Origin: Cellulomonas palmilytica
Lineage (GTDB): Bacteria > Actinomycetota > Actinomycetes > Actinomycetales > Cellulomonadaceae
Length of the DNA stretch: 64,000 nt
Assembly: GCF_021590045.1 (NCBI RefSeq)
Contig: NZ_CP062221.1
Span: forward strand, 1,178,001 to 1,242,000
Reading direction: 5' to 3'
Shown here piece after piece: positions 18,093-48,911 of this stretch (within the stretch, counting starts at the first letter, position 1; each line of letters begins with the position of its first letter). The notes under the pieces were generated by a model. That model was not told where the DNA came from. It saw only the letters and a program-made list of their open reading frames with translations, and made no database searches. The translations under genes and the position numbers were made by a program.

Positions 18093-19418
18093 TCAGGAGC
18101 GTGGACCGAAGACGCGCGTGAGGTAGTCGTTGTCGAACACGCCCGTCGGGTCCGCGGCCGCGCGCACGCGCTGCGCGTCGGCGAACCGCGGGTACAGCTC
18201 ACCGAGGCGGTGCGCGTCGAGCCAGTGGAGCTTGCCCCAGTGCGGGCGGCCCTCGTGGTCGGCCATGATCCGCTCGACCGCCGAGAAGTAGCGCTGGTAC
18301 GGCAGGCGCCAGTACTGGTGCACGGCCACGTACGCGGACTCGCGCCCGTGCGCCGTCGAGAGCCACACGTCGTCGGCCGCGGCGAACCGCACCTCGCCCG
18401 GGAACGGCAGGTGCTCGCCCGACGACTCGACCCAGCGGTCGATCTCTGCCAGCACGTCCCGCAGCGCGGCGCGCGGCACGGCGTACTCCATCTCGCGGAA
18501 CCGCACGCGGCGCGGCGAGGCGAACACCTGCGGCGACGGCGCGACGTAGCGGCGCGCCGAGAGCGTGCGCGCGGCGATCTGGTTGATGCGGCGCGTCGCG
18601 CCCGGCACCGCGGTGGCGATGCGGTTGGTCACCTCGAACACGGAGTTCGACAGCAGCTCGTCGTCGACCCACCGGCGCACGGGGTGCAGCCCGGGGCCGT
18701 CCTCGACGCGGTTGTTGCGCTTGGTCAGCGCGCGACGCGTGTGCGGGAACCAGTAGAACTCGTAGTGGTCGTTGCCCTCCACCAGCCCGTCCGGGCCGTC
18801 GAGCTGCTCGAGCACGTCGTCGAGCGGCCAGGGCTCCTCGACGGCCTCCAGCAGGAACGCCGGGACCACCTCGAGCGTGACCGCCGCGAGCACGCCGACC
18901 GAGCCGAGCCCGAGCCGGGCGAGCTCGAACAGCTCGGGGTGCTGCGTGGGGGAAGTCTCGACGACGTCGCCCGTGGCGGTCACGAGCCGGACGCCGACCA
19001 CCTGCGTGGCGAGCCCGCCGAGCCGCACGCCGGTGCCGTGGGTGCCCGTGGAGATCGCGCCCGCGATCGACTGCTGGTCGATGTCGCCGAGGTTGCGCAT
19101 CGCGAGGCCGAGCGCGCCGAGCGCGCCGTTGAGCGCCGCGAGCCGGATCCCGGCTCCCACGGTCACGAGCGACGTGCCGTCGGCGCGTCGCTCGACGCGC
19201 TCCACCTGGTCGATCGCGTCGAGGTCGAGCAGCACGCCGTCGGTCACGGCGGCGGGCGTGAAGGAGTGGCCCGCGCCGACCGCCCGGACGTGAAGTCCCT
19301 GGTCAGCGGCGCGCGCGACCGCACGCACCAGCTCGTCGACGTCCCGCGGACGCTCGAGGCGCCGTGGCGTGGACGAGGCGGTGCGCGCCCAGTTGACCCA
19401 GCGCGTCGTCGACTCCAT
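18093..19418 (-). CDS. D-arabinono-1,4-lactone oxidase family FAD oxidoreductase
   Basis: Flavin-dependent oxidase of sugar lactones or alditols. The 441-aa protein has an FAD_binding_4 domain with G-A-G-H-S-F (His for covalent FAD in this family), then the ALO domain ending in the typical H-W-G-K-L-H-W and D-P-T-G-V-F-D-N-D-Y motifs. TTGACT and CACAGT are 17 bp apart and CACAGT ends 7 nt before ATG 19418, pointing to a leaderless start. It is divergent from the TetR gene; an MFS transporter and a PLP enzyme follow that regulator, so the four genes may form one catabolic locus. Confidence 0.88.
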   Translation of the reverse strand: MESTTRWVNWARTASSTPRRLERPRDVDELVRAVARAADQGLHVRAVGAGHSFTPAAVTDGVLLDLDAIDQVERVERRADGTSLVTVGAGIRLAALNGALGALGLAMRNLGDIDQQSIAGAISTGTHGTGVRLGGLATQVVGVRLVTATGDVVETSPTQHPELFELARLGLGSVGVLAAVTLEVVPAFLLEAVEEPWPLDDVLEQLDGPDGLVEGNDHYEFYWFPHTRRALTKRNNRVEDGPGLHPVRRWVDDELLSNSVFEVTNRIATAVPGATRRINQIAARTLSARRYVAPSPQVFASPRRVRFREMEYAVPRAALRDVLAEIDRWVESSGEHLPFPGEVRFAAADDVWLSTAHGRESAYVAVHQYWRLPYQRYFSAVERIMADHEGRPHWGKLHWLDAHRLGELYPRFADAQRVRAAADPTGVFDNDYLTRVFGPRS

Positions 19419-19439
19419 CACTGCGACTGTGGACTGAAC

Positions 19440-19451
19440 ACTTGTCCAAGT
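19440..19451. promoter_or_regulatory. Possible TetR operator
   Basis: ACTTGTCCAAGT is an inverted repeat (ACTTG-N2-CAAGT) located over the -35/spacer region of the oxidase promoter, between the divergent oxidase and TetR genes. Confidence 0.45.
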
Positions 19452-19548
19452 CAAGCGCGACGGTCATGCTTGGCTATCGTTGTCGCACGGTGACACACCG
19501 GTCGCGGGCGGGGGCCCGGGCCCTGGCCGGTGCAGTGGAGGGGACCGC

Positions 19549-20166
19549 ATGAACCGCATGCCGGTGGCCGAGCGGCGCGAGCAGCTCATCGAGGCCGCGA
19601 TGACGGTCGCGAGCAGGGACGGGATCGAGGCAGCGACCGTTCGGGCGGTCGCCGCGGAGGCCGGCGTCTCGCTCGGGGTCGTGCACTACTGCTTCCAGGA
19701 CAAGTCGGAGCTCATGCGTGCGATGGCGCACGCCATCACCGCGCAGAACACGCAGGCCGACCTGTCCGACGTGCCCGAGGGCGCACCCACCGAGGCGGTG
19801 ATCGAGGCCGTCGTCACGGCGCTCTGGACGCAGATCTCCGCCGCGCGCGGGCCGCAGCTGCTCTCCTACGAGCTGACGACGTCGTCGCTGCGGCACGCCG
19901 AGCTGCGCGAGGTCGCGATCGAGCAGTACCGCGGGCAGTGGTCGGCCGCCGAGGCCGTGCTCGAGGAGATCGCCCGCATCTCGCGCGTCCAGTGGGTCGC
20001 GCCCGTCCCGCGGCTCGCGCGCGCGACCGTCGCGATGGTCGACGGGCTGTCGCTCGCGTGGCTCGTCGACGGCGACGAGGAGATCGCGCGGCAGACCATC
20101 GAGGGGTTCGGGAAGTTCCTCGCGACGCAGACCGAGCCGCTCGAGCCGGCGGGCGTCGAGGAGTGA
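19549..20166 (+). CDS. TetR-family transcriptional regulator
   Basis: A 205-aa TetR repressor. The N-terminal HTH is clear (A-T-V-R-A-V-A-A-E-A-G-V-S-L-G-V-V-H-Y-C-F-Q-D-K-S-E-L, residues about 27-53), followed by an all-helical ligand domain with a TetR_C_6-like layout. GGAGGGG precedes the ATG. The stop overlaps the MFS start (GTGA), so both are co-translated. Its operator may be the palindrome before the oxidase gene. Confidence 0.9.
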   Translation: MNRMPVAERREQLIEAAMTVASRDGIEAATVRAVAAEAGVSLGVVHYCFQDKSELMRAMAHAITAQNTQADLSDVPEGAPTEAVIEAVVTALWTQISAARGPQLLSYELTTSSLRHAELREVAIEQYRGQWSAAEAVLEEIARISRVQWVAPVPRLARATVAMVDGLSLAWLVDGDEEIARQTIEGFGKFLATQTEPLEPAGVEE

Positions 20167-40638: not shown

Positions 40639-41310
40639 TCAGGTGCCCGTGCCCGTCTCCTCGAGCAGCCGCAGCGCCGCGCTGACGCGCGGGTTGCGCG
40701 AGGGGTCGGCGTCGATGCCGAGCGTCGCGTAGAGCGCGTTGACGTGGTTCTGGACCGACTTCTCGGTGATCCCGAGCTGTTCGCCGATGCCGGCGTTGGA
40801 CAGCCCCGAGGCCAGCAGCCGCAGCACCTCGTACTGCCGGTGGGTGAGGCGCGCGACGTCGGACCCGGCGCGGGGGGTCGCGCGCGCGAGCAGCTGGGGG
40901 TCGAGCACGGTCACGCCGACGGCGGCGGAGCGCACGGCGGACAGGAGCCGCTCCTCGCTCGTGGAGCTGTTCTTCGACAGGTAGCCCCACCCGTGACCGA
41001 CGTCGGGTGGCAGGTCGAGCAGCAGGTCCATGGCGTCGTGCGCGGACAGCAGCAGGATCCCGATGTCGGGCTGCTCCCGGCGCAGCATGACGCCGAGCGC
41101 GATGCCGTTGCCGTCGGGCAGGTCGATGTCGAGCAGCGCGACGTCGGCGACGCCGGGCCGCAGCGCGGCGCGGGCCTCGGCGAACGTCCCGACGGACGCG
41201 ACGACCTCGAGGCCGGGCATCTGCGCGAGCGTGCGCTCGAGCATCGAACGGAACAGCGGCTGGTCCTCGACCACCGCCACTCGGACGACCTCGGGTGCGG
41301 GTGTGCTCAT
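40639..41310 (-). CDS. NarL/LuxR-family response regulator
   Basis: A 223-aa regulator with a receiver domain (V-E-D-Q near residue 15, phospho-Asp in L-L-D-I-D-L-P-D-G, L-S-A-H-D) and a C-terminal LuxR HTH (L-T-H-R-Q-Y-E-V-L-R-L-L-A-S-G-L-S-N-A then I-G-E-Q-L-G-I-T-E-K-S-V-Q-N-H). It is divergent from a histidine kinase gene, its probable partner. It is the nearest DNA-binding protein to the two SipW clusters and so a candidate for binding their shared palindrome. Confidence 0.9.
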   Translation of the reverse strand: MSTPAPEVVRVAVVEDQPLFRSMLERTLAQMPGLEVVASVGTFAEARAALRPGVADVALLDIDLPDGNGIALGVMLRREQPDIGILLLSAHDAMDLLLDLPPDVGHGWGYLSKNSSTSEERLLSAVRSAAVGVTVLDPQLLARATPRAGSDVARLTHRQYEVLRLLASGLSNAGIGEQLGITEKSVQNHVNALYATLGIDADPSRNPRVSAALRLLEETGTGT

Positions 41311-41383: not shown

Positions 41384-42520
41384 ATGGCCGAGGCGACCCC
41401 GACGAGGCGCGGTGACGTCGCGGCGGACCGCAGGGTCCTGCTGCGGCTCACGGGGGTCGTCGCGCTGGGTTACGGGCTGGGCGCGTCGGTGCAGGCCGCG
41501 TACGTCTACTCGAACCTCATCCCGGCGTGGCGGGACGTGAGCGTGTGGTCGCGCGTGGGTGCGAACGTGCTCGCGGTCGTGCTGCTGGTGGGTGCGCTGT
41601 GGGCGATGGGCGTGCACCGCTGGGTGTCCCGCGTGCGGATCCTGGGCGGGCTCCTGCTCGCGTCGGTGGTCGCGGCGGGCGGGCGCACGGCGGCGCAGGA
41701 GCTGCTGAGCGTGTACACGAACCCGGAGCGCGCGACCATCGAGGCGGAGTTCCTCGCGGGGATGGTGCTCGCGTTCGCGTCGGGCTGCATCGGGGTGTGG
41801 GGGCTGCTCGCGCGGCGGCGCAGCCGGGCGCACCTGCGCCGTGCGGAGCGTGAGGCGCTCGAGGTGGAGCACGTGCTGGAGGCGCTCGAGGCCGAGGAGG
41901 TCCGGGTGCGTCGGGAGGTCGCGGAGGGGCTGCACGGGTCGTTGCAGGGCAAGCTCGTGGTGGTGAACGCGCATCTCGACGAGGTCCTGGGCCGGATCGA
42001 GGGGAGCGCGGATCCCGACGACGTCGCGACGTTGCGTCGGGTGCGCGACGAGCTGGACGTGGTGCGGGAGCTGGACGTGCGGCAGATGAGCCGACTGCTG
42101 TACCCGGAGCGCCTGGAGCTGGGGCTCGTGCCGGCGGTGCGTGCGTTGCTGGGGCGTCTGCCGACGGCGATCGCGACGCGTCTGACGGTCTCGCCCGAGG
42201 TGCGCACGGTCGACGACCCGGTGCAGGGGACGTTGTCGACGGCGCAGCGGCTGCTGGCGGTGCGGGTGGTCGAGGAGGGCGTCACCAACGCGTTGAAGAA
42301 CGGCCCGGCGGCGACGATCGTCGTCGTGCTGGACGTGGTGGACCGTGAGCTCGTCGTGGCGGTGGAGAACGACGGTCCGGCGCCCGACCCGGCGCGTGGC
42401 AGCGACCCGGACGGGGGGACGGCACGGCTCGCGTCCCGGCTGCACCTGGTGCGGGGGACGGTGCGGCTGGAGGCGCTGCGGCCGCGGGGCGCGCGGCTGG
42501 AGGCGCGTCTCCCACTCTGA
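41384..42520 (+). CDS. Membrane sensor histidine kinase, NarX/DesK-like
   Basis: A 378-aa kinase with four N-terminal helices (to about residue 145), a coiled-coil linker, a HisKA_3-type dimer helix and a HATPase domain. The H-box reads E-E-V-R-V-R-R-E-V-A-E-G-L-H-G-S-L-Q, slightly unlike the usual R-E-L-H-D; the N-box V-V-E-E-G-V-T-N-A-L-K-N-G and a short G-box E-N-D-G-P follow. GGAGG precedes ATG 41384. It lies 73 bp from the divergent regulator and 240 bp before SipW cluster A. Confidence 0.85.
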   Translation: MAEATPTRRGDVAADRRVLLRLTGVVALGYGLGASVQAAYVYSNLIPAWRDVSVWSRVGANVLAVVLLVGALWAMGVHRWVSRVRILGGLLLASVVAAGGRTAAQELLSVYTNPERATIEAEFLAGMVLAFASGCIGVWGLLARRRSRAHLRRAEREALEVEHVLEALEAEEVRVRREVAEGLHGSLQGKLVVVNAHLDEVLGRIEGSADPDDVATLRRVRDELDVVRELDVRQMSRLLYPERLELGLVPAVRALLGRLPTAIATRLTVSPEVRTVDDPVQGTLSTAQRLLAVRVVEEGVTNALKNGPAATIVVVLDVVDRELVVAVENDGPAPDPARGSDPDGGTARLASRLHLVRGTVRLEALRPRGARLEARLPL

Positions 42521-42582
42521 GACGTTCACCCGGACGGCCGAGCCGCTGCTCAAGTCCGATTGATCGGGCGGTGTCGTTTTGT

Positions 42583-42596
42583 TGGACAGATGTCCA
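42583..42596. promoter_or_regulatory. Palindrome TGGACA-N2-TGTCCA before SipW cluster A
   Basis: TGGACAGATGTCCA, a perfect 6-bp inverted repeat with a 2-bp centre, lies about 165 bp before the first gene of cluster A. The same palindrome with TT in the centre precedes cluster B. Confidence 0.65.
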
Positions 42597-42759
42597 GGGT
42601 GAAAGAAGTCGGCATACCCGGCGCGCTGGGTGGCAGCACCTCAGCCCCCTCTCGGAGCGCTTCTGCCGGCGGCCTAGCGTCGGCGTCGTCCGCGCGAGCG
42701 GACCGCGCGGCACCCACCCCCGGGGCGACCGTCGACCTCCCCCCTCCAGGAGACCCGTC

Positions 42760-43176
42760 ATGAGCACCAAGAAGAACAACCGCCGCAAGGCCCTCGCCGT
42801 CGGCTTCGCGATCGTCGGTGTCGCGGGCCTGTCGCTCGCGTCCGCGTCGCAGCTCAACCTCAGCTGGGCCGGCCAGTACCAGGCCGGCAACGTGACGGTG
42901 GAGGGCGAGTGCCAGGAGTCGCCCATCTCGGTCGCCTTCAGCGCCCCGACGTTCGCGTCCGGCACGACGAACCCGTGGACCGTCCAGAGCGTGACGTTCA
43001 GCTCGATCGACGCCGACTGCGACGGCAAGCAGTACCGCGTCGCGTACAAGACGAACGGCGCCTGGGTCGCGCTCGCGGACGGCGCCGCCGCCACGGGCGT
43101 CCTCACGGTCTCCGCGCCCGCGGGCGTCGACCCGTCGACGATCACGGGCTTCGCGCTCTCGATCGCCAACGCCTGA
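42760..43176 (+). CDS. Small exported protein, first gene of SipW cluster A
   Basis: A 138-aa protein with a basic N-terminus (K-K-N-N-R-R-K), one hydrophobic segment and a mature part of about 105 residues that looks all-beta, with two cysteines (G-E-C-Q-E, D-A-D-C-D-G). The signal region ends S-A-S-Q-L-N-L-S-W instead of a textbook A-X-A plus charge pattern, consistent with cleavage by the peptidase encoded 11 bp downstream. AGGAGA precedes the ATG. It resembles the small TasA/camelysin-type surface proteins in layout only. Confidence 0.75.
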   Translation: MSTKKNNRRKALAVGFAIVGVAGLSLASASQLNLSWAGQYQAGNVTVEGECQESPISVAFSAPTFASGTTNPWTVQSVTFSSIDADCDGKQYRVAYKTNGAWVALADGAAATGVLTVSAPAGVDPSTITGFALSIANA

Positions 43177-43187
43177 CCCCGGGCGCG

Positions 43188-43835
43188 ATGCCCCGAACGG
43201 TCGTCACCGCAGCACCCGACGCGCCACCCGCGCGCCGGGTGCTGCCTGGCGTCCGGACGATCCTGCTCTACGCGGCGGCGCTCGTCGCCGTGTGGTTCGT
43301 CTGGCCGACGAGCCTCGGCGGCTGCACGACCCTGACCTACGTCAACGGCCACTCGATGGAGCCGACCTACCACACGGGCGACATCGTGGTCTCGCGCTGC
43401 GGCGAGCCGCAGGTGGGCGACGTGATCGTGTACGCCCCCGCGTCCGAGGGCGGCGCGCGCATCATCCACCGCGTGATCGGCGGCGACGCCGACGGGTGGG
43501 TCGTGCGCGGTGACAACAACTCGTTCACGGACCCCTTCGAGCCCGCGGGCGACGAGGTGCTCGGCGTCGCGCAGCTACACGTCCCGAAGGTCGGCCTCGC
43601 GCTGAGGTTCGTGACGAACACGTACGTGTGGCTCGGGGTGCTGTTCCTCGCGCTCGCGCTGTGGGCGTGGCCCCCGCGCGACGACGAGGTCGACGAGCCC
43701 GACGACGCGTCCGGCGAGCCCCTCGACGAGCCCGACGAGGACGACGAGGACGACGAGGACGCGGCCGGGGACGACGAGTCCGACGACGAGCGGGACCGGA
43801 CCGCCCGCCCCGACGCGGCCCTGGCCGGGGTCTGA
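43188..43835 (+). CDS. Signal peptidase I, SipW/ER type (cluster A)
   Basis: A 215-aa S26 peptidase. Box B reads N-G-H-S-M-E-P-T-Y (nucleophile Ser), box D reads I-I-H-R-V-I-G-G-D with His in the place of the bacterial-type Lys, and V-R-G-D-N-N follows; this Ser-His set defines the ER/archaeal/SipW type. One helix lies at each end of the catalytic domain. The C-terminal cytosolic tail of about 50 residues is almost wholly Asp/Glu. It lies 11 bp after the first and 10 bp before the next exported-protein gene. Confidence 0.88.
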   Translation: MPRTVVTAAPDAPPARRVLPGVRTILLYAAALVAVWFVWPTSLGGCTTLTYVNGHSMEPTYHTGDIVVSRCGEPQVGDVIVYAPASEGGARIIHRVIGGDADGWVVRGDNNSFTDPFEPAGDEVLGVAQLHVPKVGLALRFVTNTYVWLGVLFLALALWAWPPRDDEVDEPDDASGEPLDEPDEDDEDDEDAAGDDESDDERDRTARPDAALAGV

Positions 43836-43845
43836 GAGGACGGAC

Positions 43846-44958
43846 ATGCCCACGCGAGCGCGAGCCGTGCGACGCCACCCGGTGGTGGCGCTGCTCGTCG
43901 TGCTCGCGGTCGCGGTGATGTCCGTCGCCGGCGCGCAGGCCGCCGGCCTGTCGCTGCTCGCACCGACCCGGCCCACGGCGCAGCAGCTCGCGCGCTGCGC
44001 GCCCGGCCCGGTGACCGTCAGCCCGACGGGCACGGCGACCGCGGGCCAGTTCACGCAGGTCGCCGTGTCGGGTGTCTCGGGCTCGTGCACGGTCGGCGCG
44101 GTCCGGGTCGCGTCGGGTGCCGCAGGCGCGTGGACGCAGTCGTTCGTCTCGTCGTCGTCCGCGATCTCGGGCGGCACGTTCACCGCGACGGGTGCGGCGT
44201 TCACGCCGCCGGTCACGGCGAACGGCCGCGCGTGGGTCACGGTCAACGGCTGGCCGGTCCCCGCGACGTGGACGTACGCGCCGCCGGCGGGTCCCGTGAG
44301 CCCGGGCAACGACAGCACCGTGATGCCGAGCATCGAGTGGACGCTGGTGACCAACAACCCGGTCCAGGTCTGCTTCATCGCGACCGTGTCCACCACGTCG
44401 ACGACCCCCGTGCCCTGGCAGCTCAGGCTGGACCTCGCGCAGGCGCCGTTCAACGGCGCGACGAGCGGCTTCACCATCGTGAACGCGCCCGGCGGCGGCG
44501 ACATCTCGTGGAAGCTCGGCATCACGTACGACCAGGCCGCGATGACCGCGCGGATCGCCGGCAAGCCCGACGTCAACGCGCCGATCACGACGATCACGAG
44601 CGCGACGACCCTGCGCTTCCAGGTCTGCCACTACGGCCTGCCGCCGGGTGTGCAGACGCCCTCGGCGTACACCGTGACCTACACGAACAGCCCCGCGTGG
44701 ACGGCGACGCGTGCGTGCGTGACCGCCACCGTCACGGGCAACGGCTCGTCGCGCTTCTACTTCGGGTGGACCGTCGAGCTCGACATGTCGGCGGCGCGCG
44801 CGGCGGTCGGCGCGGGTGGCTGGACGGACCTCACGGGCAACCTGTGGCAGCTCACGCGCACCGACCTGGGTGGCAACAGGTTCCGGTTCACGAGCAACAC
44901 CGCGGCGAACATCTCCGGCACGCAGTCGTACGTGTTCACGTACTGCGCGACCCGCTGA
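43846..44958 (+). CDS. Secreted beta-rich protein of SipW cluster A
   Basis: A 370-aa exported protein: basic start, hydrophobic segment and a conventional A-Q-A cleavage site near residue 32, then Ser/Thr/Gly-rich beta-type sequence in two parts. The first holds a C-x(29)-C-type pair; the second has G-W-T, V-C-F-I, V-C-H-Y, A-C-V-T and Y-C-A-T cysteines. No anchor or LPXTG motif is seen. GAGAGGAC precedes the ATG. Probably a major cell-surface or fibre component; that is inferred from the cluster. Confidence 0.75.
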   Translation: MPTRARAVRRHPVVALLVVLAVAVMSVAGAQAAGLSLLAPTRPTAQQLARCAPGPVTVSPTGTATAGQFTQVAVSGVSGSCTVGAVRVASGAAGAWTQSFVSSSSAISGGTFTATGAAFTPPVTANGRAWVTVNGWPVPATWTYAPPAGPVSPGNDSTVMPSIEWTLVTNNPVQVCFIATVSTTSTTPVPWQLRLDLAQAPFNGATSGFTIVNAPGGGDISWKLGITYDQAAMTARIAGKPDVNAPITTITSATTLRFQVCHYGLPPGVQTPSAYTVTYTNSPAWTATRACVTATVTGNGSSRFYFGWTVELDMSAARAAVGAGGWTDLTGNLWQLTRTDLGGNRFRFTSNTAANISGTQSYVFTYCATR

Positions 44959-44967
44959 CCGTCGGGC

Positions 44968-45804
44968 TCAGCCCGCGTCGGTCGTGACGGGCGCGGGCGC
45001 CGGTCGCTTGGGCGCGCGGGTGTCGCCCGACGAGCGTCCGCGCAGCCGGCGCGTGGCCCACGGGTAGACGTGCTCACGCGCCCAGCGTGCGTCGCCGCGC
45101 AGCCGGTCGAGCCGCGGCGTCGGGGGCTGGGGCGCGAGCGGGTCGTCCCAGCGCTCCTCGTCGGGCGGCAGGCCGAGCGCGACGAGCGCGGCCTGCGCGA
45201 CGCGTGCGTGGCCGTCGGTCGTCAGATGGATCCGGTCCTCGGCCCACATGCGCCAGTCGCGCAGCGAGCGCATGCCCCACAGGTCGAGCACGTGCGCGCC
45301 GTGGCGGTGGGCGATGGACCAGATGTGCGTGTTGTACGTCGCGACCCGCGCGCGCGTCGCGCGCAGCAGCCCGCTGTCGACGGTGTCGACGCCCGTCCCG
45401 AGCAGCACGTCGACGCCGGCCTCGCGCAGCCGGACGACCGCGGACTCGAGGTCGCGCGCGAGCCGGTCGACGTCCGCGGCCGGGCGCAGGATGTCGTTCC
45501 CGCCGCCGATGAGGCTCACGAGGTCGGGCTTCAGGCCGAGCGCCGCGGGCACCTGCTCCGTGAGGATCGGGCGCAGCAGGCGGCCGCGGATCGCGAGGTT
45601 CGCGTACTCGAGCGGCTCGTCGCCCGCGGCGACGCGGCGCGCGGACAGGCGCGCCGCGAGCACGTCCGCCCACCCGCGCAGGGGAGCCGACGGGTCCGCC
45701 GGAGCGGCCCCGTCGGGGGAGTCCCACAGGCCTTCGGTGAACGAGTCACCCACGGCCACGTACCGGGTCCAGCGCACGCCCTCATCCGTCGACACGACCG
45801 ACAT
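44968..45804 (-). CDS. SGNH/GDSL-type hydrolase
   Basis: A 278-aa esterase/lipase-like enzyme without a signal peptide. The blocks are V-G-D-S-F-T-E-G (Ser nucleophile, about residue 20), N-L-A-I-R-G-R, G-G-G-N-D-I-L and D-R-I-H-L-T-T-D-G-H (catalytic Asp/His). ATG 45804 has GGAGG 4 nt upstream. It sits on the opposite strand between the two SipW clusters, and its stop is 9 bp from the end of cluster A. Substrate unknown; a role in modifying envelope material would be speculation. Confidence 0.88.
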   Translation of the reverse strand: MSVVSTDEGVRWTRYVAVGDSFTEGLWDSPDGAAPADPSAPLRGWADVLAARLSARRVAAGDEPLEYANLAIRGRLLRPILTEQVPAALGLKPDLVSLIGGGNDILRPAADVDRLARDLESAVVRLREAGVDVLLGTGVDTVDSGLLRATRARVATYNTHIWSIAHRHGAHVLDLWGMRSLRDWRMWAEDRIHLTTDGHARVAQAALVALGLPPDEERWDDPLAPQPPTPRLDRLRGDARWAREHVYPWATRRLRGRSSGDTRAPKRPAPAPVTTDAG

Positions 45805-45902
45805 TGTGCCTCCGGACGGGTGAGATCGCGGCCACCGGTGGGGGAGCGGTGTGGCGCGTGCGAGTGAGCCTCGACGGCCCTGTGAAGGGGTCGTGAACGA
45901 GC

Positions 45903-45916
45903 TGGACATTTGTCCA
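45903..45916. promoter_or_regulatory. Palindrome TGGACA-N2-TGTCCA before SipW cluster B
   Basis: TGGACATTTGTCCA (extended to CTGGACA-N2-TGTCCAG) lies 126 bp before the first gene of cluster B and 99 bp from the divergent SGNH start. It is the second copy of the site before cluster A. Confidence 0.65.
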
Positions 45917-46041
45917 GTTCGGGACGGAGGGCCCCGGGACCTGCCCCATTCGCTCCGCACAGTTGATAACGCTCGTGAGAATCACTCGCACGGAGATGGC
46001 GTGACACCAGTCCCCGGCCGTGCACCGAAGGAGGGAAAGAC

Positions 46042-46632
46042 ATGACCGCTCAGACCACCAACGCCACCACCGCGACCGTCGCCGACGAGCGCGAGGAGCG
46101 CCGCCGCAAGCGGGCCGCCATCGTCAAGTTCTCGCTCGCCGGCGCGGCCGTCCTCGGCATCGGCGCGGCCGCCACCTCGGCGACCTGGACCGACGACGCG
46201 TGGTTCAGCGCCGCGGGCTCGGCGGCCGGCGACAGCGAGGACTTCATCGAGCTGCGGGCATCGGTCGACGGCGGCACCTGGCACGACGCGGACACCGGTA
46301 CGGTCGCCGTCCCGCTGCCCGCTGCGGTCTTCGCCGAGATGTTCCCGGGCGAGACGCGGACGACCACGGTCCACATCCAGAACGAGGACCTGAACGGGAT
46401 CGACCTCGCGGTGACCGAGGAGATCACGGTCGCGGACGGCCTGTTCGCGGGCGCCATCGTGACGACCGACTTCACCAACGGCACGGTCGTCGGCGCCGGC
46501 GACGACATGGACATCGCGGTGACCGTGACGGCACCGCGGGACGCGTGGATCGACAACCCGAGCCTCGGCTCCGAGGCCGCGGAGGGTGACATCGCCACGC
46601 TCCGCTACACCGGCACCGCGATCTCGGGCTGA
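46042..46632 (+). CDS. SipW-dependent exported protein (cluster B, first gene)
   Basis: A 196-aa TasA/camelysin-like exported protein. The alternate signal peptide has a long basic start (R-E-E-R-R-R-K-R), a hydrophobic core and the hallmark A-T-S-A-T-W-T-D-D-A-W-F at its end. The mature domain is acidic, all-beta in appearance and without cysteines. GAAGGAGGG is a strong ribosome site. The cognate peptidase gene follows after 44 bp. Likely a surface or fibre subunit. Confidence 0.82.
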   Translation: MTAQTTNATTATVADEREERRRKRAAIVKFSLAGAAVLGIGAAATSATWTDDAWFSAAGSAAGDSEDFIELRASVDGGTWHDADTGTVAVPLPAAVFAEMFPGETRTTTVHIQNEDLNGIDLAVTEEITVADGLFAGAIVTTDFTNGTVVGAGDDMDIAVTVTAPRDAWIDNPSLGSEAAEGDIATLRYTGTAISG

Positions 46633-46676
46633 CGCCCGACTCGCTCCACCCGCACCGAGGAAGAGGAAGGCTCCCC

Positions 46677-47219
46677 ATGCGTGCACTCAAGGTGATCGGC
46701 AACACCGTGCTGTGGCTCGTCGCCGCGCTCGGGCTCGCCAGCGTGCTCGTGTGGGGGGCCACCCAGGCAGGGTGGATCAAGCCGCTCGTCGTGATCTCGG
46801 GCTCGATGGAGCCCGAGATCATGACCGGCGACCTCGTCGTCGCCGTCCCGCGCCCGACCGCCGACCTGCGGGTCGGTGACGTCGCGTCCATCCACTCGGA
46901 CGTCACGGGCAACCTCGTCTCCCACCGGGTCGTCGGCGTCGAGCAGGTCGCCGACGACCGGTGGGAGATCCGGATGAAGGGCGACGCGAACGACTCCGAG
47001 GACAGCGGCGCGTACGTCGTCGGCGACTCGGTGTGGCGGCCCGCGGTGCAGATCAGCGGCGGCGGGTACGCCCTGACGACGCTCACGCGGCCGTCGGTCG
47101 CGATCCCGCTCGGCGTCGCCCTGCTCTCGCTCCTGGGCCTGAGCCTGCTGCCCCGGTCCGCGCCTCGCGCACCGGCCGGCGACCGCATGCGCACGGAGGT
47201 TGTCGAGGCGGCGCGATGA
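46677..47219 (+). CDS. Signal peptidase I, SipW type (cluster B)
   Basis: A 180-aa S26B peptidase with one helix at each end. Catalytic Ser in V-I-S-G-S-M-E-P-E (about residue 42), His in L-V-S-H-R-V-V-G, and Asp in M-K-G-D-A-N-D; there is no Lys general base, so it is of the SipW/ER type. It should cleave the W-T-D-D-type signals of the neighbouring proteins. It overlaps the next gene by ATGA. It differs clearly from the cluster A enzyme, so the two are not a recent duplication. Confidence 0.9.
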   Translation: MRALKVIGNTVLWLVAALGLASVLVWGATQAGWIKPLVVISGSMEPEIMTGDLVVAVPRPTADLRVGDVASIHSDVTGNLVSHRVVGVEQVADDRWEIRMKGDANDSEDSGAYVVGDSVWRPAVQISGGGYALTTLTRPSVAIPLGVALLSLLGLSLLPRSAPRAPAGDRMRTEVVEAAR

Positions 47220-47809
47220 GGCGGGCTCGACGCAGCCGCGCCGCGGCCGCCGCGCTCGTCCTCTCGGTCGCGCTCGCGGCCGCGGCAGTCCTCGGCGCGG
47301 TCACGACACCGCTGCGGTGGGAGCGCGAGGAGCTCCTCGCGCTCGACCTGGGACGGATCGCCGTGGACGACTCGACGCACGTCCTGCGCACGATTCGCGT
47401 CCCCGTGGCCGCGCACGTCGAGGACGTCGTCGTGGCCACGCACGGGCCCGACGGCCTGACGTGGACGGTCGAGCTGTGCGACCCGACCGGGGACACGTGC
47501 CACCCGGTCTCCGAGGCGCTCGTCGGACGTGAGCTGACCGCCGGCGAGCACGAGCTGCGCGTGAGCGTCGAGCCCGCCGAGCTCGCCGCCGGCGCGGCGG
47601 CCCGGCTCGACGGGCACATCCGGCTCGTCGAGGCGCGCGACGCACAAGACGTCGCACTCGTCGTCGTCCTCCTGCTCGCCGCGACCGTCGCAGCCGTCGT
47701 CGGATCGCTCCTGAACCGCTCGGTGCCGCCCCGCGGGGCCGCACCGAGCGCGGGCCCGCTCGCCGCGACCGCACCCATCCCCGTCCTGTCCCACTCCGAG
47801 GAGGTCTGA
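47216..47809 (+). CDS. Membrane protein of SipW cluster B, unknown
   Basis: A 197-aa protein with an N-terminal helix (about residues 9-29), an extracytoplasmic beta-rich domain of about 110 residues containing one Cys pair (L-C-D-P-T-G-D-T-C), and a C-terminal helix (about 147-168) with a short cytosolic tail. This topology suits an anchor or assembly factor for the exported subunits. It overlaps the peptidase gene and is followed 2 bp later by a SipW-type substrate gene, so all are one operon. Confidence 0.72.
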   Translation: MRRARRSRAAAAALVLSVALAAAAVLGAVTTPLRWEREELLALDLGRIAVDDSTHVLRTIRVPVAAHVEDVVVATHGPDGLTWTVELCDPTGDTCHPVSEALVGRELTAGEHELRVSVEPAELAAGAAARLDGHIRLVEARDAQDVALVVVLLLAATVAAVVGSLLNRSVPPRGAAPSAGPLAATAPIPVLSHSEEV

Positions 47810-47811
47810 CC

Positions 47812-48333
47812 ATGCAGCTGCGTCACCCACGCGTCGCGCTGCCCGCGCTGCTCGGCCTGGGCGTCCTGGGCGTCCTGGGCGGATTCGGCGTCGCGACGAC
47901 CAGCGCCGCCTGGACCGACGACGCGTACTTCACCGCCCAGGGGTCGACGGGAACCGTCGACCTTCGAGGCTCGAGCGACGGCGTGGACTTCACGGAGGCG
48001 GACTCCACCGGGACCGCGGTCACGCTCGCCGCGGTCAGCGGTCTGACGCCCGACACCCCGGTCACCCGCACCATCCACCTGTGGAACGCGTCGACCGTCC
48101 CGCTCGCGCTCTCGTGGGCCACCGCGCCGACGGCGCTGCTCGACGGCTGCGTCGAGGTCGACTACCAGTCCCTCGCGGGCGTGACGCTCGCATCCGGACC
48201 CGACCAGCCCGTCGGCGCCGCGGTCACCACCGCGACCGTCACGTTCCGCGTCGCCGACGACGCGCCCGCCGCCACGTGCAGCGGGAAGTCGCTCGACGCC
48301 GTCCAGATCGTCGTCCAGGGGAGCCCCGCATGA
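47812..48333 (+). CDS. SipW-dependent exported protein (cluster B, second)
   Basis: A 173-aa exported protein: signal peptide with hydrophobic G-L-G-V-L-G-V-L-G-G core ending T-T-S-A-A-W-T-D-D-A-Y-F, the SipW-type hallmark. The mature part is beta-rich with two cysteines (G-C-V-E, A-T-C-S-G). GAGGAGG precedes the ATG. It shares the Y-F-T-A/W-F-S-A plus G-S pattern after the motif with the first substrate of the cluster. It overlaps the next gene by ATGA. Confidence 0.8.
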   Translation: MQLRHPRVALPALLGLGVLGVLGGFGVATTSAAWTDDAYFTAQGSTGTVDLRGSSDGVDFTEADSTGTAVTLAAVSGLTPDTPVTRTIHLWNASTVPLALSWATAPTALLDGCVEVDYQSLAGVTLASGPDQPVGAAVTTATVTFRVADDAPAATCSGKSLDAVQIVVQGSPA

Positions 48334-48911
48334 CCACGACGCACCGCCCCACGCATCGACGGATGAGCCGGCCCCGCGCGCTCGCGGCCGTCCTGGCCGC
48401 CGCCGCCCTCCTCGTCGGCGGCGCGCGCCTCGCGTCCGACGCGACGGACCGCACCACCGCCGCCTGGACGGACGACGTCCACGTCACCAGCCGCGTGGCG
48501 CTCGGCACGTGGACCGATGTGTTCGAGAACTCGTGCCAGGTCATCAAGCCCGACGGCTCTGTGCAGCCCAACGCGACCTGCTCCGTCACCACGATCGAGT
48601 ACTTGAACTCCTGGAGCGTGGGGACGGGCAGCGGCGGAGTCCGGTTCAACATCCACGGCTCGGCCACGAACGCGGTGGCCGACTCGGACCGCTTCCGGGT
48701 CACTGTCGACCTCTCGCAAGCGCAGGGCGTGCCCGCCGACTTCCAGTGGGCGAGGGCCGGGATCACCTGGACGAACTTCGAGTCGGCCCACGCGGACTGC
48801 TCACGCAAGCCGATCGTCACCGCGAACACCTACAGCTGGGCGGCGAACGCCGGGACCTTCAAGCTCGAGGTCCAAGCGCACGAGAACGCGACGCAAGGAG
48901 GCTGCGTCTAG
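48330..48911 (+). CDS. SipW-dependent exported protein (cluster B, third)
   Basis: A 193-aa exported protein with basic start, hydrophobic segment and D-R-T-T-A-A-W-T-D-D-V-H-V at the signal end. The mature part resembles the C-terminal part of the large secreted protein of cluster A in style, with four cysteines (N-S-C-Q, A-T-C-S, A-D-C-S, G-G-C-V). It ends the operon, and its stop is 3 bp from the end of the convergent ung gene with no room for a separate terminator. Confidence 0.78.
   Translation: MTTTHRPTHRRMSRPRALAAVLAAAALLVGGARLASDATDRTTAAWTDDVHVTSRVALGTWTDVFENSCQVIKPDGSVQPNATCSVTTIEYLNSWSVGTGSGGVRFNIHGSATNAVADSDRFRVTVDLSQAQGVPADFQWARAGITWTNFESAHADCSRKPIVTANTYSWAANAGTFKLEVQAHENATQGGCV

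Follow-up and report, generated by a model that had tools for sequence, protein, structure and literature searches.

Clusters A (42760-44958) and B (46042-48911) of Cellulomonas palmilytica appear to be two SipW-type export cassettes that share one candidate operator, and on balance we favor the reading that these operator-linked cassettes are under a two-component system and are switched together by the neighboring response regulator and histidine kinase. Each cassette would encode a dedicated Ser-His peptidase together with small β-sandwich surface proteins. The features are listed below in positions of the window, the whole stretch of 64,000 nucleotides that was analyzed.

40639-41310, minus strand: NarL-type response regulator (receiver and GerE/LuxR HTH; PF00072, PF00196), candidate regulator of the operator
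41384-42520, plus strand: histidine kinase, encoded divergently to the response regulator gene, its neighbor in related loci as well; weak UhpB/MctS and HATPase matches; start probably the first plausible in-frame ATG
42583-42596, no strand: palindrome A, TGGACAGATGTCCA, ending 163 bp upstream of the A1 start codon (ATG)
42596-42615, plus strand: conserved block AGGGTGAAAGAAGTCGGCAT, abutting palindrome A
42626-42643, no strand: second conserved palindrome CTGGGTGGCAGCACCTCA (GGGTG-N4-CACC element)
42675-42680, plus strand: possible -10 element TAGCGT (TAnnnT), suggested by alignment of related promoters
42760-43176, plus strand: A1, small exported protein with A-type signal and predicted Fn3/Ig-like mature domain
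43188-43835, plus strand: A2, SipW/archaeal-type (Ser-His) signal peptidase (TIGR02228, 61.7 bits; PF10502)
43846-44958, plus strand: A3, exported protein of 370 aa, signal region not specially conserved
44968-45804, minus strand: product that we take, from its motif, to be an SGNH/GDSL-type hydrolase, usual right-hand neighbor of the cassette locus; start presumably at an internal ATG
45903-45916, no strand: palindrome B, TGGACATTTGTCCA, ending 125 bp upstream of the B1 start codon (ATG)
46042-46632, plus strand: B1, exported, ATWTDD hallmark, predicted Ig-like mature domain
46677-47219, plus strand: B2, SipW/archaeal-type (Ser-His) signal peptidase (TIGR02228, 64.6 bits)
47216-47809, plus strand: B3, probable membrane protein with hydrophobic N- and C-terminal stretches (by eye), no hallmark
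47812-48333, plus strand: B4, exported, AAWTDD hallmark, B4-like matches in related cassettes
48330-48911, plus strand: B5, exported, AAWTDD hallmark, B5-like matches in related cassettes

The sequence-only reading had placed TGGACA-N2-TGTCCA at 42583 and 45903 and nowhere else in the window; this is exact, as are its coordinates and reading frames for both clusters. Moreover, the two sites are the sole exact pair in the genome of 3,834,012 bases (3.83 Mb), one ahead of each SipW cluster, and the reversed pattern of the strict palindrome occurs 0 times in the whole genome. Allowing up to one mismatch yields 9 genome sites versus 3 for the reversed pattern, one of the 9 lying in the window at 19435. 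Palindrome B sits in the gap between B1 and the divergent SGNH hydrolase gene, with one start 98 bp away and the other 125 bp away; going by position alone, it could therefore serve either gene. In promoter A, the block AGGGTGAAAGAAGTCGGCAT is the sole genome match when CGGGTGAAAGAANNCGGCAT is searched with as many as 3 mismatches allowed. A sigma-28-type promoter for a GCCGAT(A)A-like string was dropped, as no -35 was seen by eye. No Rfam family of RNA leader was found near promoter A or B, the two sub-threshold matches falling inside coding sequence or at its end.

A search of related genomes, which the earlier reading had proposed, succeeded for a relaxed palindrome, namely TGGACRNNYGTCCA with at most one mismatch, and failed for the strict form, which lies mostly away from SipW genes. 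The relaxed site is present in 28/53 histidine kinase-side cassette promoters of the genus, this window's included, and absent from 25/53; shuffles predict 0.2, and the count is not independent because the pattern was read off loci L025-L084, mostly within the 53. It also occurs in second-cassette promoters after the SGNH gene (6/9, or 5/9 without counting this window's own), and in 5/16 later-fetched loci (0.08 expected; 11/16 without it), related genomes not being independent events. By contrast, it was found in 0/39 SGNH upstream stretches that lack a second cassette (0.23 expected), in 0/9 cassette-free loci with response regulator, kinase and SGNH hydrolase, and in 0/84 gaps between response regulator and kinase, so no autoregulation is seen. 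The site further precedes cassettes with neither response regulator nor kinase in the fetched stretch (L089, L095, L098 and the CalY-like L103), the first three of which, with L100, were assigned to the "remote" group when their sites had already been seen. Among B-type cassettes located away from the two-component system, at least six lack the site (L043, L047, L211, L229, L238 and L239), versus three with it.

Two broader uses of the palindrome were rejected. As a conserved genus-wide mark, the strict form gave 23 sites in 19/81 genomes (reversed control 7), with SipW genes near 2/18 examined foreign loci. As a marker for SipW genes in general, a site with up to one mismatch was found anywhere in the fetched stretch for only 5/22 further SipW-type loci (20 plus L086 and L215; three are B-type), the nearest upstream site being ~1.3 kb away (L235). 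In 12 genomes picked as cassette carriers, 47/56 relaxed sites lie away from identified A/B cassettes (reversed control 18).

Directly upstream of cluster A lie the response regulator and histidine kinase genes, which the sequence-only reading had overlooked. The response regulator matches PF00072 with 56.6 bits (cut-off 30.2) and PF00196 with 45.3 bits (cut-off 23.5), its best solved relative is DevR/DosR (3c3w, E 3.8e-21), and its identity is 73-94% in other loci of the genus, the L132 copy being split into pieces of 80% and 64%. The SGNH hydrolase occurs in 48/53 genus loci, with 61-93% identity in others. Together, the regulator-kinase pair and the hydrolase usually frame an exchangeable SipW cassette, which may be of type A, type B, both, divergent or none. 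A cassette adjoins the pair in 53/53 kinase-containing genus loci, A or B type alike, all of these having been fetched for holding a SipW or B1 match; 9 loci fetched later contain the pair and the hydrolase and no cassette, so the two-component system has, or had, other targets. Across the genus, this frame marks one set position at which different cassettes are exchanged.

The HK-side promoter is marked by a second palindrome, GGGTG-N4-CACCC. Its shorter form GGGTG-N4-CACC occurs in 58/60 stretches adjacent to the two-component system, two of which (L207 and L208) lie on contigs too short to show a cassette, and in 9/15 of those in other genera; it is more conserved than the TGGAC site, which was found in 31/60 and 2/15, respectively. 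Where both elements occur (27 loci), the TGGAC site lies 5' of the second palindrome in 14 loci, abuts it in 8 and lies 3' of it in 5, a variable placement that suggests repeated re-creation of the site. The GGGTG element, a possible mark of a SipW regulon, was not found before cluster B; it is also present ahead of a third SipW operon in this genome and in C. uda, and in 2/4 other-genus kinase loci without a peptidase match. Of a further 20 third-type loci, six reach a score of at least 13 for it, and three of these (L262, L272 and L275) have an exported-looking ORF within 320 bp. Shuffles alone give 7.7/53 at one mismatch, and one reversed-sequence control is uninformative because reversing the motif keeps it. 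CTRGGTGNNNNCACCY has 92 matches in 23 genomes (reversed control 24). By inspection, 14 of them have a SipW-type match no more than 4 kb away, while several others are located at the 3' ends of genes and resemble terminator hairpins.

We propose that TGGACRNNYGTCCA acts as a genuine operator ahead of both cassettes, that the NarL-type response regulator beside cluster A most likely binds it, probably as an activator site, and that the adjacent histidine kinase would phosphorylate this regulator. An envelope or surface signal would be what the kinase senses, switching both cassettes jointly, in keeping with a putative surface role. A less probable though serious alternative is that the palindrome is a true cassette operator whose regulator is encoded elsewhere, the two-component system acting through GGGTG-N4-CACCC or being a mere syntenic neighbor. 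The retention of this system in the 9 cassette-free loci, the higher conservation of the GGGTG element and the fact that the pair and the SGNH hydrolase are conserved neighbors anyway, so that adjacency is partly synteny, all agree with it. Against it, B cassettes directly follow the kinase in place of A in other species, the site has a NarL-like layout, and Pfam and NCBIfam gave no match to a regulator family for any of the eight cassette proteins; in addition, G040, one genome only, has no kinase match and its B-type cassette has no site. The recognition helix of the response regulator is nearly invariant with or without the site and hence provides no covariation proof.

Comparison with DosR, limited to excerpts of the cited studies, bears on whether the neighboring response regulator binds the palindrome. 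The DosR test oligo has the core GGGACTAAAGTCCC with GGAC..GTCC half-sites, and the 6-2-6 palindrome here has the same layout, although the half-sites differ in their outer base, T here and G in the oligo (PMC5999986). DosR contacts DNA through K179, K182 and N183, and K182Q abolishes binding to its own site (PMC5999986). Aligned to 3c3w, the response regulator here reads K, Q and N at these positions, which is not the pattern of a DosR orthologue; with Q at the K182 position, DosR specificity is not transferable. The OsdR consensus AGGGCCGATCGGCCCT (PMC5069765, excerpt) is less similar to the palindrome.

A Ser-His rather than a Ser-Lys dyad defines the SipW/archaeal-ER-type signal peptidase I. 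Both A2 and B2 exceed the NCBIfam TIGR02228 cut-off of 51.85; the Ser lies in HSMEP of A2 and GSMEP of B2, the His in IIHRV and VSHRV, respectively, and neither sequence has Lys at the His position, which bears out the earlier assignment of an own Ser-His peptidase to each cluster. An A-W-T-D-D signal hallmark had also been ascribed to three cluster B substrates; it is indeed carried by B1, B4 and B5, but reads A-x-W-T-D-D, and B3 is without it. The A1 signal instead has a different conserved motif, GVAGLSLASASQL. Columns conserved at 90% or more number 21/45 in the signal versus 6/122 in the mature part of B1, and 14/36 versus 7/95 in A1; for A3, the in-cluster control with a poorly conserved, ordinary-looking signal, they number 2/36 versus 49/315.

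Peptidase type and signal-peptide type co-segregate. Loci with only the A peptidase (n=50) have the A hallmark in 32/50 and the B hallmark in 1/50, those with only the B peptidase (n=21) in 0/21 and 13/21, and those with both (n=3) in 2/3 and 3/3; by the patterns used, 18/50 A-only and 8/21 B-only loci have neither. The lone B hallmark among A-only loci belongs to L096, in which the contig end cuts off the B cassette. The SipW-dependent-type signal model TIGR04088 matches 17/44 B1 relatives at E <= 0.01; at E <= 0.1 it matches neither B1 itself nor any of the A1 relatives (0/34). The unusually conserved signal peptides would fit the peptidase of their own cassette, which presumably cleaves them.

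The sequence-only reading had inferred a co-regulated surface-fiber or matrix system, which the results support in part. No relationship to TasA was found, and a fiber role of the exported proteins is conjectural. Bacillus subtilis tapA-sipW-tasA is under SinR control, and TasA adopts a jellyroll fold and forms donor-strand fibers, according to the excerpted account (PMC9674648); going by that account, both systems place a dedicated SipW beside exported substrates, but here a palindrome and a NarL-type regulator are combined with Ig/Fn3-like models. That the cassettes are fiber or matrix operons homologous to TapA-SipW-TasA seems unlikely. The SipW-type peptidase with small exported β-rich proteins and the TIGR04088 matches of B1 relatives would suit such homology; however, the Bacillus SipW equivalog NF046067 gives A2 and B2 only 24.6 and 44.3 bits, far below its cut-off of 190, none of the eight cluster A/B proteins matches a TasA/camelysin family (Pfam and NCBIfam, E <= 0.1), and profile searches gave no TasA chain for A1 or B1 (E <= 1). 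Structure prediction, suggested earlier as a check, gave A1 and B1 models that resemble Ig/Fn3 sandwiches at middling Z; the absence of TasA from their fold matches is an absence only and no evidence. By far the least credible reading is that the palindrome is not regulatory and reflects chance or inherited identity of two promoters: the unconserved strict form and the many relaxed sites away from cassettes would fit it, but the 28/53 against 0.2 expected, the 0/39 controls, the 5/16 later loci, the variable placement and the sites at second and remote cassettes all argue against it.

The cassettes are perhaps best read as a variation on an already known arrangement of SipW with a two-component system, comparable to BsaRS/SipW/BsaA. 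In Clostridium perfringens, sipW-bsaABCRSD comprises a SipW peptidase gene and an exported polymer-forming protein, BsaRS is needed for transcription, and its response regulator binds the sipW promoter, as the excerpted study states (PMC7395162). A two-component system is likewise linked to a SipW operon here by gene neighborhood. Set against that excerpt, the two-component genes lie inside the operon in C. perfringens, whereas here they diverge from each other next to an exchangeable cassette, and one candidate operator is common to two cassettes.

SipW-type export is known mainly from biofilm proteins of Bacillus and Clostridium. Among the matches listed in the open-licence PMC literature, no description of a system such as the present one was found. 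In Cellulomonas, a genus of mostly cellulose-degrading bacteria (PMC4652355, excerpt), the interval between the regulator-kinase pair and the SGNH gene may, tentatively, be a dedicated exchange site, in which whole SipW modules replace one another or stack, each entering the regulon of the resident sensor by carrying or re-evolving one short operator. If so, the operator could serve to locate more SipW modules in a genome, unrelated CalY-like ones included. Altogether, the locus offers an actinobacterial version of SipW export in which two peptidases are each matched to a signal type and candidates exist for both the operator and the sensor. Three questions thereby become open to direct testing: which stimulus the sensor detects, whether the hallmark dictates the cutting peptidase, and how cassettes swap at a fixed locus.

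The genome, a single contig of 3,834,012 bases, belongs to a near relative of C. uda within Cellulomonas, and the histidine kinase (HK) next to cluster A is 92% identical in the C. uda record NZ_BJLP01000031. The sequence-only reading had described two SipW-type clusters, A and B, with two peptidases and two promoter palindromes, all of which were found on checking the sequence; the exact palindrome, TGGACA-N2-TGTCCA, has only two copies genome-wide, each before one SipW cluster, with 0 matches to the reversed-pattern control in the whole genome. The peptidases A2 and B2 are only about a third identical. One product of cluster B, B3 (window 47216-47809), is hydrophobic at both ends, lacks the signal hallmark, and may serve the B system as a membrane anchor or accessory.

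Cluster A adjoins a divergent two-component pair:
40639-41310, minus strand, NarL-type response regulator (RR), divergent from the HK
41384-42520, plus strand, histidine kinase, directly upstream of cluster A

The gene order RR (minus), HK (plus), cassette and SGNH hydrolase gene (minus) recurs across the genus, with SGNH present in 48/53 HK-containing genus loci. By our own reading of 65 sufficiently complete genus loci, 39 carry an A-type cassette only, 14 a B-type cassette after the HK (preceded in L097 and L100 by a weak A-like peptidase), three, including this genome, an A-type cassette plus a B-type one after SGNH, and two a divergent peptidase only, while seven are empty; since it was SipW, B1 or HK matches that led to the loci, these counts are not unbiased frequencies. 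With two more empties in other genera, nine loci (L197-L201, L203, L206, L188 and L196) have RR-HK directly beside SGNH and no cassette, their HK and SGNH frames ending at most about 50 bp apart. Judged by gene order, they are cassette loci that are naturally empty.

The SipW cassettes are matched peptidase/signal modules. Loci with the A peptidase only have an A-type signal (G-V-A-G-L-S-L-A-S-A-like) in 32/50 cases and a B-type signal in 1/50; those with the B peptidase only have 0/21 and 13/21, respectively, and the three loci with both peptidases have two A-type and three B-type. Conservation of the signal stretch greatly exceeds that of the mature protein in A1 and B1, but not in A3.

The strict palindrome gave 23 sites in 19 of 81 genus genomes, versus 7 reversed-control sites. 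On its own it mostly has no connection with SipW in other genomes, because only 2 of the 18 foreign loci examined (21 foreign sites in all) have SipW genes within 1.5 kb. Scanning A- and B-type peptidase neighbourhoods revealed that a less strict version, the relaxed form TGGACRNNYGTCCA, recurs there in a consistent position. Counted at up to one mismatch, with expectations from dinucleotide shuffles, it occurs in 28/53 stretches from the HK to the first cassette gene, the window's included (0.2 predicted), and in 6/9 stretches from SGNH to a second cassette (5/9 as scripted, where a BLAST match spanning an over-long ORF omitted the window's own site). It was found in 0/39 equivalent SGNH stretches lacking a second cassette (0.23 predicted), and within 300 bp in three of four hand-picked remote or internal B promoters. 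Since this form was read off loci overlapping the counted set, the later-fetched loci are the cleaner test: the site is in 5/16 of those bearing a cassette (0.08 predicted) and in 0/9 empty loci. As background, 12 chosen genomes hold 56 sites against 18 for the reversed control, and nine of the 56 are at known A/B cassettes; this genome holds seven, two at cassettes (reversed control 3). We consider the palindrome very probably an operator.

A one-mismatch copy, TGAACACTTGTCCA, lies at window 19435-19448 and is probably due to chance. It sits at the divergent starts of two genes:
18093-19454, minus strand, oxidase-like gene
19480-20166, plus strand, TetR-like gene

In three second-cassette promoters (L107 at 5954, L109 at 7527 and L112 at 1712) the site is followed by a GGGAC-N4-GTCC palindrome, 21 bp centre to centre; this spacing of two helical turns suggests that paired regulator dimers may bind there.

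Away from the locus, the site precedes cassettes whose fetched stretch contains no RR or HK (L089, L095, L098 and L103); the divergent L103 cassette, which we take to be CalY-like, carries the exact palindrome. B-type cassettes off the locus in L043, L047, L211, L229, L238 and L239 have no such site. A third SipW-type operon (G000:C1:3601540-3605200; loci L086 and L309) lies outside the window after a ribosomal L15-like gene, and encodes a 739-aa exported protein, a small, presumably camelysin-like protein, a peptidase and further exported proteins; no site at up to one mismatch precedes its first gene.

A de novo palindrome search of the 53 HK-side promoters gave as its top result tGGGTG-ctag-CACCCa, not the palindrome of the sequence-only reading; its log-likelihood at width 16 was 376.5, against 20-24 in four shuffles, and it lies inside a conserved block CGGGTGAAAGAA...GGGTGNNNNCACCC...CCTACGTTC. 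In the window this block (CGGGTGAAAGAA...GGGTGNNNNCACC...TAGCGT, 42596-42690) is conserved more than the first palindrome, and a genome search with its first part, allowing up to three mismatches, gave one match. Comparison of promoters places the element before cluster A and finds none before cluster B:
42626-42643, GGGTG-N4-CACC before cluster A

At up to one mismatch it occurs in 58/60 genus stretches after the HK, two of the 60 being contig ends with no visible cassette (shuffles predict 7.7/53), in 9/15 loci of other genera (7/11 with a peptidase match, 2/4 without) and in 0/9 empty loci. An identical 14-mer precedes the third SipW operon (3,605,184) and the matching C. uda operon, and six of 20 further third-type loci score 13 or more. 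Where both elements occur, the first lies upstream in 14 cases, abutting in eight and downstream in five, varying between species, which fits retention through function rather than through descent alone. The near-complete GGGTG form has 92 matches in 23 genomes (reversed control 24); because, by our own reading, only 14 are 4 kb or less from a SipW-type match, and some of the rest lie at gene 3' ends, it may act as a promoter element, as a terminator-like hairpin or in both roles. Copies of GGGTG-N4-CACCC close behind gene ends in L281, L282 and L294 (in L294, just after a gcvH-like gene) look like terminator hairpins.

Whether the RR would bind the palindrome is evenly balanced. It is a candidate because it adjoins whichever cassette is present, because it is a NarL-family protein whose nearest relative of solved structure is DevR/DosR, and because the 6-2-6 palindrome resembles the test oligo given for DosR in PMC5999986. 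Counting against it, the two-component pair is retained where cassettes are missing, 25/53 promoters have no site, the RR recognition helix shows no covariation, and a Q replaces a DosR contact lysine. Published work on related regulators covers OsdR (PMC5069765), DevR (PMC3029386) and DosR (PMC5999986).

The literature matches listed contained no description of an actinobacterial counterpart. The nearest known system is sipW-bsaABCRSD of Clostridium perfringens, where sipW transcription requires BsaRS and the promoter is bound by BsaR (PMC7395162); in Bacillus subtilis, tapA-sipW-tasA is under SinR control (PMC9674648). The Cellulomonas case differs from these known systems in its shared putative operator, in the divergent RR/HK beside the cassette, in the different cassettes that occupy one locus, and in the exported protein types.
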